Assembly (NCBI RefSeq): GCF_000026145.1
Contig: NC_009445.1
Location: 62,001-126,000, forward strand
Reading direction: 5' to 3'
Origin: Bradyrhizobium sp. ORS 278
GTDB lineage: Bacteria; Pseudomonadota; Alphaproteobacteria; Rhizobiales; Xanthobacteraceae
DNA length: 64,000 bases
Of this stretch, positions 22,502-27,022 are shown in pieces. Each line of letters opens with the position of its first letter. Position 1 is the stretch's first letter. The translations under genes were made by a program, and so were the position numbers. Under the pieces are notes generated by a model, which saw only the letters and a program-made list of their open reading frames with translations, ran no database searches and was not told the DNA's origin.

Positions 22502-23263
22502 ATGGATCAGACGGACCAGACCACTCATTTCGGCTTCAGGGACGTGCCACTGGGCGAGAAGCAGACGCTGGTGAACGACGTGTTTCACAGCGTCGCCTCC
22601 CGCTACGACTTGATGAACGACCTGATGTCCGGCGGGCTGCACCGCGTCTGGAAGGACATCATGATCAACACGCTGAACCCGCCGAAGAGCGATGCCCCGT
22701 TCGCGCTGCTCGACGTGGCGGGCGGCACCGGCGACATTTCCTTCCGCGCCGCCAAGAAGGCCGGCGCCGGCTTCCACGCCACCGTCTGCGACATCAATGG
22801 CGACATGCTCGAGGTCGGCCGCCAGCGCGCGCTGAAGCAATACCTCGACGACAGGGTGTCGTTCGTCGAGGGCAACGCCGAGAGCCTCGCCTTTCCCGAC
22901 CGCTCCTTCGACGCCTATACGATCGCCTTCGGCATCCGCAACGTGCCGCAGATCGACCTGGCGCTGGCCGAGGCCTACCGCGTGCTCAAGCATGGCGGCC
23001 GCTTCCTGTGCCTGGAGTTCTCGACCGTCGAGGTGCCCGGCCTCGACAAGCTCTACGACCTGTTTTCCTTCAACGTCATTCCGCAGCTCGGCCGCGCCGT
23101 GACCGGTGACGCCGAGTCCTATCGCTACCTCGTCGAATCCATCCGCCAGTTTCCGCGCCCCAATGCCTTCGCCGAGATGATCTCGGCGGCCGGATTCTCC
23201 CGCGTCTCCTGGCAGACCCTTTCCGGCGGCATCGTCGCGCTTCATTCCGGCTGGCGTTTGTGA
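22502..23263 (+). CDS. ubiE: Ubiquinone/menaquinone biosynthesis C-methyltransferase
   Basis: SAM-dependent C-methyltransferase of ubiquinone synthesis, 253 residues from the ATG at 22502, with GGAGTAAGG just upstream. Motif [19 protein letters not shown]; conserved [20 protein letters not shown] near the N-terminus and [20 protein letters not shown]. It ends ...LHSGWRL. The stop TGA overlaps the ubiB GTG start, so UbiE and UbiB are translationally coupled. Confidence 0.97.
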
Positions 23264-24834
23264 TCTCCGCACTGACACATATTACGCGGCTCGCCCGGGC
23301 CGCCCTGGTGTTCGCGCGCGAGGGCGTGTTCGGCGTCGTCGATCCGAGTCTGGCGCCGCCGCCGGGTCAGATCGCGCTCAAGCTCGCGCGCCTGGTCGAG
23401 CGGCCCGGAGCGAAGTCCGGACCGCGGCTGTCGCGTGCGCTGGAACGGATGGGTCCGGCCTATCTCAAGCTGGGCCAGTTCCTGGCCACGCGGCCCGACG
23501 TCGTCGGCGTCGTGATGGCGCGCGATCTCGAATCCCTGCAGGACCGGCTGCCGCCGTTTCCGCAGGCCGAGGCGGAAGCCGTCATTGCCACCGCGCTCGA
23601 ACGCCCGATCAGCCAGCTCTACACCTCGCTCGGCCCGCCCGTGGCGGCGGCCTCGATCGCTCAGGTGCATCGCGGCGAGGTCGAGCGCGACGGCATCCGT
23701 CATGCCGTCGCGGTGAAGGTGCTCCGGCCGAACGTGGCGGCACGCTTCCGCCGCGACCTCGCCGATTTCTTCTTCGTCGCCGAGAAGGCCGAGGCGCATT
23801 CCGCCGAGGCGCGGCGCCTGCGGCTCGTCGAGGTCATCAACACAATGTCGCGTTCGGTCGCGATGGAGATGGATCTCCGGCTCGAAGCCGCCGCGCTGTC
23901 GGAGATGGCGGAGAACATCAAGGACGATCCGGACTTCCGCGTGCCCGCGGTCGACTGGGACCGCACCGCCAACAACGTGCTCACCATGGAGTGGATCGAC
24001 GGCATCGCGCTGAACGACCACGCTCGCCTCGCGCAGGCGAATGTCGACCTGCCCGATGTCGGCCGTAAGGTGATCCAGAGCTTCCTGCGCCACGCGCTGC
24101 GCGACGGCTTTTTCCATGCCGACATGCATCCGGGCAATCTGTTCCTGGACAAGCAGGGCCGGCTGGTCGCGGTCGATTTCGGCATCATGGGCCGGCTCGG
24201 CATGAAGGAGCGGCGCTTCCTCGCGGAAATCCTGCTCGGCTTCATCACCCGCGACTATCGCCGCGTCGCCGAGGTCCATTTCGAGGCCGGCTACGTGCCG
24301 CCGCATCATTCGGTGGAGAATTTCGCCCAGGCCATCCGCGCCATCGGCGAGCCGATCCACAACCGCACGGCCGAAGAGATCTCGATGGCCAAGCTGTTGA
24401 CCCTGCTGCTCGAGGTCACCGGCCTGTTCGACATGCGGACCCGGCCGGAGCTGATCCTCTTGCAGAAGACCATGGTGGTGGTCGAGGGCGTCGCGCGCGG
24501 CTTCGATCCCAGGCTCGATATCTGGAAGGTCGCCGATCCCGTGGTGCGCGAATGGATCGAGCGCAATCTCGGCTCGCTCGGCCGCATCGAGGGCGCCGTC
24601 ACCGGCATAGGAGAGCTGGCCCGTATCACATCCACATTGCCGGTCCTCGCCGCGCGTGCCGCTGCCGTGCTGGAGAACCTGGAGACGATGACCCGCGACG
24701 GCCTGCGCCTGTCGCCCGAAACCATCGCCGCCATGGGCCGCACCGAAGGCAAGAAGAGCCGCTGGCGCGCCATCGCGCTGTGGGTCATCGCGCTGACCTT
24801 CATCGGCATCCTGTTCGCCGTGCTGCGGCTGTGA
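23260..24834 (+). CDS. ubiB: Ubiquinone biosynthesis atypical kinase UbiB
   Basis: UbiB is a membrane-anchored protein-kinase-like ATPase that supports ubiquinone synthesis. 524 residues, GTG start overlapping the ubiE stop. KxGQ motif ([15 protein letters not shown]), an Ala-rich loop replacing the Gly-rich loop ([11 protein letters not shown]), VAVKVLRP, catalytic [13 protein letters not shown] and metal-binding VDFGIMG. Two hydrophobic C-terminal helices (about 500-524, [20 protein letters not shown]) anchor it in the inner membrane. Confidence 0.96.
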
Positions 24835-25139
24835 CGCCGACGAGCGACCATCGACAGGCATTAACGCCGCTACGCCCAAGGTGTCATCGCCCGGCTTGAC
24901 CGGGCGATCCAGTACGCTGCGGCCGTCCTGATTGAACCGATGGGCTGCGGCTTACTGGATGCCCGCCTTCGCGGGCATGACGGCAGGGCATGCTAAGACT
25001 TCGGCGGCCGAGGCCGCAGGTCTCTGTGCGCCACCTTGATGGGCACGGGCCCGTAGAGCTGCTCTAGCGTCTGAACTGATTGCACTGCGATCAATTTCTG
25101 CTAGCATTGCATTCACAACGACAATGCTGGGAGGCGGTC
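24835..25139 (+). other. ubiB-coaBC spacer: dispersed repeat plus coaBC promoter region
   Basis: 305 bp. 24883-24982 is a dispersed palindromic repeat (class 2: GTCATCGCCCGG... to ...GGGCATGAC, sharing GGGCGATCCAGTACG with 32944-33044). The rest holds the candidate coaBC promoter and an inverted repeat described separately. No gene seen. Confidence 0.7.
25080..25134 (+). promoter_or_regulatory. Candidate coaBC promoter with overlapping inverted repeat
   Basis: TTGCAC (25080-25085), 16 bp, then TAGCAT (25102-25107) resemble -35 and -10 boxes. A perfect 7-bp inverted repeat, AGCATTG (25103-25109) / CAATGCT (25122-25128), overlaps the -10 box. GGGAGG (25129-25134) sits 5 bases before the ATG. 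The repeat is a plausible operator for the RHH domain of the encoded protein; this is inference. Confidence 0.45.
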
Positions 25140-26567
25140 ATGGCCAGCCTGACCATCCGCAAGCTCGACGACTCGCTGAAGACTTATCTCCGGCTGCGCT
25201 CGGCGCAGAACGGCCGCTCCGTCGAGGAGGAGGTCCGGGTCATTCTCCGGGCGCTGATCGAGCCGGTCGACCCATCCGAGCCGCCGGCGGCAGCGCCATC
25301 TCCGGCCGCTCTGCCGGATCCCGGCCTGCCCCAGCCCGGCCTCGCCCGCGAGGCACGCGTCACCCTGATCATCGGCGGCGGCATTGCCGCTTACAAGTCG
25401 CTCGACCTGATCCGGCGACTCCGGGAGCGCTATATCCAGGTCCGCTGCGTCATGACGAGAGCGGCGACGCAGTTCGTCACCGAGCTCGCCGCGTCGGCGC
25501 TGTCCGGCGACCGCGTCTTCACCGACCTGTTCGACGCGCGCAGTGAGTTCGACGTCGGCCATATCCGGCTGGCGCGCGACTGCGATCTCATCGTCGTCGC
25601 GCCGGCGACCGCCGACCTGATGTCCAAGATGGCGCAAGGTGCCGCCGACGATCTCGCCAGCGCCATCCTGCTCGCCGCCAGCCGGCCGATCCTGCTGGCG
25701 CCGGCGATGAATCCGATGATGTGGAGCAATCCGGCGACCCGCCGGAACGCCGCGACCCTGCAGCGCGACGGCATCCACATGATCGGGCCGAACGCCGGCG
25801 AGATGGCTGAGAAGGGCGAGGCGGGTGTCGGCCGCATGGCCGAGCCGACCGAGATCGCCGACGCCGTGGTCGCGATGCTGAAGCCCCCGGCGCCGCGCCC
25901 GCTCGCCGGCCGCCGCGTGCTGATCACCGCGGGGCCGACGCACGAGCCGATCGACCCCGTCCGCTATATCGCCAACCGCTCCTCCGGCAAACAGGGCTTT
26001 GCGATTGCCGCCGCAGCCCAGGCCGCCGGCGCAGACGTCAGGCTGATCGCGGGACCGGTCGAGCTCGCCGATCCCAAGGGCGTCAAGGTCACGCATGTCG
26101 AGTCGGCGCGGCAGATGCTCGAGGCTGTCGAAGCCGAGCTGCCGGCCGACGTCGCGATCTTCGCCGCAGCGGTGGCGGATTGGCGCGTCGCCAGTGAAGG
26201 CGGCCAGAAGCTGAAGAAAACCGATCAGGCAATCCCGCCGCTGCAGCTGGTCGAGAACCCTGACATCCTCGCGACCATCTCCAAGCTGAAAGAGAAGCGC
26301 CCCGGCCTGGTCATCGGCTTCGCCGCCGAGACGGAACATCTGATCGACAACGCCAAAGCCAAGTTCGCGCGCAAGGGCTGCGACTGGATCGTCGCCAACG
26401 ACGTCTCGCCCGCCACCGGCGTGATGGGCGGCGACCGCAACACGGTGCATCTCTTGACGAAGGACGCCGACGGCGTCCATGTCGCGTCGTGGCCGATCAT
26501 GACCAAGGACGAGGTGGCGAACGCGCTCGTCGCCGAGATCGCCCGAACCGTAGGACAATCAGCGTGA
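25140..26567 (+). CDS. coaBC: RHH domain fused to bifunctional CoaBC (PPC decarboxylase / PPC synthetase)
   Basis: 475 residues, coenzyme A biosynthesis. Residues 1-42 ([20 protein letters not shown]...) look like a FitA-type ribbon-helix-helix DNA-binding domain; a Pro/Ala linker (43-70) follows. CoaC (about 72-250): [15 protein letters not shown], His141 (FDVGHIRLA), PAMNPMMW. CoaB (about 255-475): [32 protein letters not shown]. The ATG at 25140 has a strong GGGAGG 5 bases upstream, so the RHH part is truly in this gene. The cysteine-bearing ACGD-type loop of E. coli Dfp reads AEKGEAG here. The stop overlaps the dut GTG start. Confidence 0.93.
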
Positions 26568-27022
26568 CACAGACGATCGCGATCGACGTTCGCATCCTGC
26601 CGCATGGCGCGGGCCTGCCGCTGCCGGCCTATCAGACCGCGCATGCCGCCGGGATGGACCTGCTCGCCGCCGTCGCGCCCGATGCGCCTGTCGTCCTCGC
26701 GCCAGGCAGCCACGCCATGGTGCCAACGGGTTTGTCGATCGCGCTGCCGGACGGCTTCGAGGCGCAGGTGCGGCCGCGCTCCGGACTCGCTGCGCGGCAC
26801 GGCGTCACTGTGCTCAATTCGCCCGGCACCATCGACGCCGACTATCGCGGCGAGGTCTGCGTGCTCCTGATCAACCACGGCAAGGAGCCGTTTACGATCC
26901 AGCGCGGCGAGCGCATCGCGCAGATGGTGATCGCGTCGGTCGTGCGCGCCGAGCTCGCGATCACCACGACCTTGTCGGAGACCGCGCGCGGCAGCGGCGG
27001 CTTCGGCTCGACAGGCCGGTGA
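26564..27022 (+). CDS. dut: dUTP diphosphatase
   Basis: Trimeric dUTPase, hydrolysing dUTP to dUMP to keep uracil out of DNA and feed thymidylate synthesis. 152 residues from a GTG at 26564 overlapping the coaBC stop (GTGA). Motifs in order: AGMDLLAA (motif 1), [11 protein letters not shown] (2), [14 protein letters not shown] (3), [10 protein letters not shown] (4) and [11 protein letters not shown] (5, the C-terminal arm that closes over the site). The coaBC-dut pairing is conserved in many proteobacteria. Confidence 0.97.

Follow-up and report, generated by a model that had tools for sequence, protein, structure and literature searches.

The window analysed here, a stretch of 64,000 nucleotides from Bradyrhizobium sp. 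ORS 278, carries on its forward strand a coaBC gene (25140..26567) whose product, read from its open reading frame and from Pfam and NCBIfam models, is a protein of 475 residues with a DNA-binding domain at its N terminus. This FitA-like ribbon-helix-helix (RHH) domain (PF22513) occupies residues 2-38 (25143..25253) and is followed by a Pro/Ala-rich linker (residues 39-72; 25254..25355), which varies in length among homologues, with 31-61 residues between residue 39 and the GG of CoaC. The flavoprotein decarboxylase CoaC (PF02441, Flavoprotein; residues 73-245, 25356..25874) and the phosphopantothenate-cysteine ligase CoaB (PF04127, DFP; residues 255-439, 25902..26456) complete the chain, which has no Pfam domain besides these three. 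The model for bifunctional CoaBC, TIGR00521, scores 397.8 bits against an equivalog cut-off of 219.7. A ribosome-binding site, GGGAGG (25129..25134, forward strand), stands 5 nt 5' of the ATG at 25140. Upstream on the same strand lie ubiE and ubiB (ABC1 family; 23260..24834; PF03109, 258.8 bits), and downstream, also on the forward strand, lies the dUTPase gene dut (26564..27022; PF00692, 111.3 bits). The GTG start of dut, as read from the sequence, overlaps the coaBC stop codon, so that the two genes probably form one operon. Since PF02441 has a single match in the genome of 7,456,587 bases (one contig), this is the genome's only CoaBC.

The first-pass annotation had recognised a FitA-type RHH at the N terminus of this protein, a complete CoaC-CoaB behind a Pro/Ala linker, and the GGGAGG 5 bases before the ATG, and it had suggested profile searches of the N terminus and across CoaBC proteins. 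These observations are borne out, and the fusion is confirmed with its frame, coordinates and domains. PF22513 reaches 55.4 bits against a cut-off of 27, with an E-value of 6e-15 for the whole protein and 6.8e-17 for its first 50 residues; a PDB sequence search with the same 50 residues returns FitA of Neisseria gonorrhoeae as its sole match, a weak one (2h1o, E 0.047; 2bsq, E 0.055). Across CoaBC proteins, 8000 homologues were scored, and each of the best 120 combines PF22513 with CoaC and CoaB. When residues 1-60 served as query, 1701 proteins matched at E <= 1e-3, and the best 120 of these all pair the RHH with CoaC. Some predicted proteins (P0125, P0133, P0138 and P0169) pair RHH and CoaC without a CoaB match (267-270 residues), one, of 530 residues, having PF27536 in place of PF04127.

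The fusion is shared by many relatives within the family. A search of 198 family genomes gave a CoaBC match in 195; among the 150 matches listed, 116 start at model position 1-2 and 34 later, and the RHH reading frame is free of stop codons in all 116. Among named loci, the RHH is present on CoaBC in 11 from Bradyrhizobium (L002-L011, L013); a further locus, L017, is a fragment, and matches beginning only at residue 65-73 come from one Rhizobiales bacterium, one Beijerinckiaceae bacterium and two Methylobacterium. Further out, 12 of the matches listed from an order sample of 249 genomes begin at position 1, eight from the family of Bradyrhizobium and four from genus g108 of family f24, as do two of those listed from a class sample of 385 genomes, both from the genus of ORS 278 itself. 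The comparisons that follow use 120 genomes with the RHH (116 of the family, spanning 27 coded genera, and the four of g108) and 57 without it. The latter comprise the 34 later-starting family rows among the matches listed and another 23 loci contributed by the search of the order; little upstream sequence is available for G055 (22 bp) and G116 (211 bp). The C terminus of ubiB lies upstream of coaBC in 97/120 loci with the RHH and 35/57 without it.

Sequence variation within genera, pooled over 119 genes (G097 was left out), gives a pN/pS of 0.20 for the RHH codons and 0.195 for the first 90 codons of CoaC; the RHH is under purifying selection like that on CoaC. Of these genes, 117 have T at position 5 and all 119 have R at position 7; in RHH proteins both positions face the DNA. 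The earlier claim that the RHH lies inside the protein stands, on the strength of the ribosome-binding site before its ATG and of this selection.

In front of the gene lie two candidate operator palindromes of 17 bp, one at 25077..25093 (TGATTGCACTGCGATCA), the genome's only exact match to the form TGATNGCANTGCNATCA, and one at 25099..25115 (TGCTAGCATTGCATTCA, 2 mismatches), the two being 22 bp apart. The class was drawn up by eye from the upstream regions of named Bradyrhizobium and then tested on the remaining genomes; at up to 2 mismatches, the ORS 278 genome holds 15 such sites, two of them before coaBC. A lenient scan finds a weak promoter-like pair on the forward strand (25080..25107), TTGCAC (25080-25085) and TAGCAT (25102-25107) separated by 16 nt, which the palindromes cover; a stricter scan found no promoter in the window. 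The annotation had pictured the protein acting on its own promoter and had pointed to 25080-25140 for DNA binding. That segment overlaps the conserved palindromes at 25077-25115, which at sequence level supports an operator at the gene's own promoter, itself weak. An inverted repeat, AGCATTG-N12-CAATGCT (25103-25128), was the first operator candidate and was dropped for the two palindromes because it is confined to the closest named kin (L003-L005 and L007, with shorter spacing in L002) and is not found in L006, L008-L011 or L013. The stretch between ubiB and the operator also holds a palindromic extragenic repeat (24880-25000), whose 26-base core occurs three times exactly in the genome.

Across genomes, the palindrome tracks the RHH. 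At up to 3 mismatches it is found within 250 bp upstream of coaBC in 118/120 genomes with the RHH versus 1/57 without it, and in 107/109 of the RHH-bearing genomes outside Bradyrhizobium, from which the consensus was not drawn; the only two without it are G102 and G043. Dinucleotide shuffles of the RHH-bearing upstream regions (40 runs) gave a mean of 2.9 and a maximum of 7 against the 118 observed, shuffles of the other set a mean of 0.5 against the 1 observed, and a control far upstream (-700..-450) of RHH-bearing genes 2/118. Strict half-sites within 200 bp upstream behave alike, with at least one in 105/120 versus 1/57 and at least two in 88/120 RHH-bearing genomes; controls gave 2/118 at -700..-500, 0/120 within the gene, and 0 for six scrambled motifs. 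Eight of the 15 RHH-bearing genomes without a strict half-site belong to genus g28, whose palindromes, judged by eye, have diverged (TGANNGCATTGCNNTCA). Two or more palindromes occur in 85/120 RHH-bearing regions, with neighbours spaced by 9 bp (35 times), 22 bp (25 times) or 23 bp (17 times; 42 for 22 and 23 bp together), which are about whole helical turns. Conservation falls sharply just outside the palindromes in an alignment anchored on the palindromes themselves. The lenient scan finds a promoter-like pair in 99/114 RHH-bearing regions, overlapping a palindrome in 88, versus 8/57 regions of the other set.

Exact copies are concentrated at the same place: of 30 sites in 100 family genomes, 26 lie at the coaBC locus with a fused RHH or fitA. 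The other four are in G040 (contig C11), G065, G060 and G094. The first has no relative of RHH, fitB, ubiB or coaBC nearby, and the second lies 4.3 kb upstream of coaBC. Those in G060 (L232) and G094 (L233), remote from coaBC, form part of longer perfect palindromes, and the one in G060 immediately precedes what by eye is a nitrilase-like gene; these longer palindromes are perhaps another regulator's site. A regulon reaching beyond coaBC was considered and set aside: no other CoA genes were found at exact palindromes in the 100 family genomes and in the ORS 278 genome.

Relatives without the fusion connect the locus to toxin-antitoxin genes. In 5/57 of these genomes a free FitA-like RHH gene lies directly before coaBC and after ubiB (G079 and G009 of g10, G174 of g41, G437 and G265 of g108), and the PIN toxin gene fitB is whole in four and reduced to its two ends in G009. 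Pfam identifies the RHH in four of the five loci and the PIN domain in G079, G174 and G265; the PIN assignment in G437 comes from a phmmer match to the PIN of G079, and the RHH assignment in G009 from a purpose-built RHH model. The fitB gene of G079 extends across the start of coaBC, and the RHH of the G079 FitA is identical in 30/37 residues to the nearest fused RHH (g9). The palindrome before the free fitA is exact in G079 and G174 and has 2 mismatches in G437 and G265, while the best in G009 is poor (4 mismatches). A further locus, G049 (g3), was found through its exact operator and stands outside the 5/57 count; its order is ubiB, operator, fitA and coaBC, with fitB reduced, by eye, to two ends between fitA and coaBC. 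Because the palindrome also precedes free fitA, the operator accompanies the RHH, both as a separate gene and within the fusion, and is not tied to CoaBC.

Other small genes occupy the ubiB-coaBC interval elsewhere. Among genomes without the RHH, G021 (L210) has a HicB-like frame with a helix-turn-helix (26.0 bits, under the cut-off of 27), and G030 (L205) a frame of 105 residues with no Pfam match that looks antidote-like by eye; genus g7 (L198, L200, L208) has what by eye is probably a GNAT acetyltransferase gene.

Given a DNA-binding head and a matching site before its own gene, CoaBC very probably controls its own production. We consider it likely, judging from sequence comparison, that RHH-CoaBC is an autogenous repressor that works through a captured antitoxin-type RHH and is built like PutA. 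The RHH, presumably derived from a FitA-type antitoxin, would pair with the RHH of a second CoaBC subunit and bind palindromes of the form TGATNGCANTGCNATCA; as the two neighbouring palindromes overlap the promoter region, sufficient CoaBC would shut off coaBC transcription, probably together with transcription of the downstream dut. Tight DNA binding by RHH antitoxins often depends on the cognate toxin, a point against this reading. Also against it are the stricter scan, with no promoter in the window and a terminator-like call on palindrome 1, the RHH-bearing genomes that lack the palindrome or the strict half-site, the poor palindrome of G009 and the small number of independent evolutionary events. 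A CoaBC oligomer may provide several linked RHH pairs, as the FitB toxin does in FitAB. Excerpts of the literature describe FitAB as contacting its operator via two RHH motifs (PMC3384007), PutA with its N-terminal RHH as an autogenous repressor (PMC5293562) and mycobacterial CoaBC as a dodecamer with CoaC at its core (PMC7794376).

An alternative, akin to the sensor-regulator that the annotation had suggested, makes the operator-bound RHH a metabolic switch, in which occupancy of CoaB or CoaC by CTP, CoA thioesters or 4'-phosphopantothenoylcysteine alters DNA binding, as proline does for PutA. The covalent joining of RHH and enzyme is consistent with it, as are the PutA precedent (PMC5293562) and the inhibition of Mycobacterium tuberculosis CoaB by CoA and acyl-CoAs (PMC7794376), both taken from excerpts. 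The sequence shows no sign of coupling, however, and a linker of such length and variability points to a loosely tethered RHH. An effect of substrate, CTP or CoA occupancy on DNA binding by RHH-CoaBC is speculative, and we regard such a switch as possible but doubtful.

Two further readings, both improbable, concern the nature of the site and its ligand. If the palindromes were RNA hairpins, forming a ubiB terminator or an attenuator rather than a protein-bound operator, one would understand why the stricter scan flags palindrome 1 as terminator-like and why in several other Bradyrhizobium the palindrome abuts or overlaps the ubiB stop codon. Yet of the 35 coaBC genes without the RHH that have ubiB in front, as in the RHH-bearing loci, 34 lack the palindrome; it also stands before fitA, and the 9-bp layout overlaps half-sites, so that two hairpins would not form. 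Alternatively, the RHH could serve only CoaBC assembly, given that RHH domains dimerise, and another FitA-like protein could bind the operator; the ORS 278 genome does hold a second FitA-like RHH (L235, C1:5751916-5752029, in a frame of 95 residues). Against this stand the association of the operator with the fused RHH (118/120 versus 1/57), the near invariance of ribbon positions 5 and 7, and the L235 locus itself, whose 3.1 kb contain no operator-like palindrome at up to 3 mismatches. That the start codon is mis-called and translation begins after the linker, where CoaBC of most bacteria begins, leaving the RHH as a separate or dead frame, is hardly credible in view of the good ribosome-binding site located 5 nt upstream of the ATG that opens the RHH, the open frame in all 116 RHH-bearing rows among the matches listed and the purifying selection on its codons.

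Enzymes that also control genes are known as trigger enzymes, and RHH-CoaBC resembles them in uniting an enzyme and a predicted regulator in one chain; it differs in that both its signal and its regulation are predictions. A close parallel to an autogenous repressor of this kind is trifunctional (type C) PutA, likewise a two-activity flavoenzyme with an RHH fused to its N terminus, which represses its own gene (excerpt of PMC5293562). RHH-CoaBC has neither the proline dehydrogenase nor the P5C dehydrogenase domain in Pfam searches and belongs to another enzyme and pathway, one of biosynthesis and not catabolism; moreover, its RHH is FitA-like and has toxin-antitoxin counterparts that occupy this locus in relatives, it is not known to have a membrane switch, and its repression is predicted. 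With FitAB and RHH-type VapBC it shares the PF22513 RHH and an operator palindrome immediately ahead of the RHH coding sequence, in the window at 25077-25093 and 25099-25115. In contrast to these systems, it has neither toxin nor toxin-binding tail and its RHH is tied to CoaBC; in the window no PIN toxin gene follows the RHH directly, as the frame continues into CoaBC and the next gene is dut. Ordinary bifunctional CoaBC (Dfp, TIGR00521) has the same complete CoaC and CoaB, to which the fusion adds the N-terminal RHH, the linker and the operator before the gene.

A maximum-likelihood tree (176 rows, G055 left out) requires the RHH state to change a minimum of 7 times, and a FastTree of 171 rows a minimum of 12. 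The latter scored G055 as lacking the RHH, although the contig of that genome stops after 22 bp of upstream sequence, and it misses five RHH-bearing rows and one RHH-lacking row; no direction is readable from either tree. In supported independent pairs the operator changes with the RHH in 3/4 and shows no difference in 1/4 (p 0.25), and the independent evolutionary events behind the association are few. Genus g108 contains fused and unfused coaBC next to each other, and G400 has an RHH unlike those of G419, G300 and G330, a hint that the domain was captured separately. The natural sequence would lead from a fitAB operon through toxin loss to the fusion of RHH and coaBC. We speculate, tentatively, that a selfish toxin-antitoxin module between ubiB and coaBC was domesticated: its toxin would have been lost, the DNA-binding half of the antitoxin and the operator kept and fused more than once, and the product would be a switch gated by metabolites, with the CoaBC oligomer clamping the DNA as the toxin did.

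A literature search for CoaBC or phosphopantothenoylcysteine decarboxylase with ribbon-helix-helix, or for CoaBC with antitoxin, in which subscription journals lay mostly outside, returned nothing fitting; to our knowledge, how these bacteria control coenzyme A synthesis at the level of transcription has yet to be described. The fusion can already be recognised in public databases from its Pfam domains, and what is new is therefore the operator, the toxin-antitoxin link and the functional reading; neither the operator nor the extent to which the fusion has spread nor the FitA-FitB operons before coaBC in relatives figured in the first-pass annotation. The double palindrome offers a precise target of 39 bp. 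If the proposed autogenous repression is true, these bacteria would possess a one-protein feedback loop for CoaBC, PutA would be joined by a second metabolic enzyme with a built-in RHH, and a single locus would allow complete toxin-antitoxin operons, the remains of toxin genes and completed fusions to be compared.
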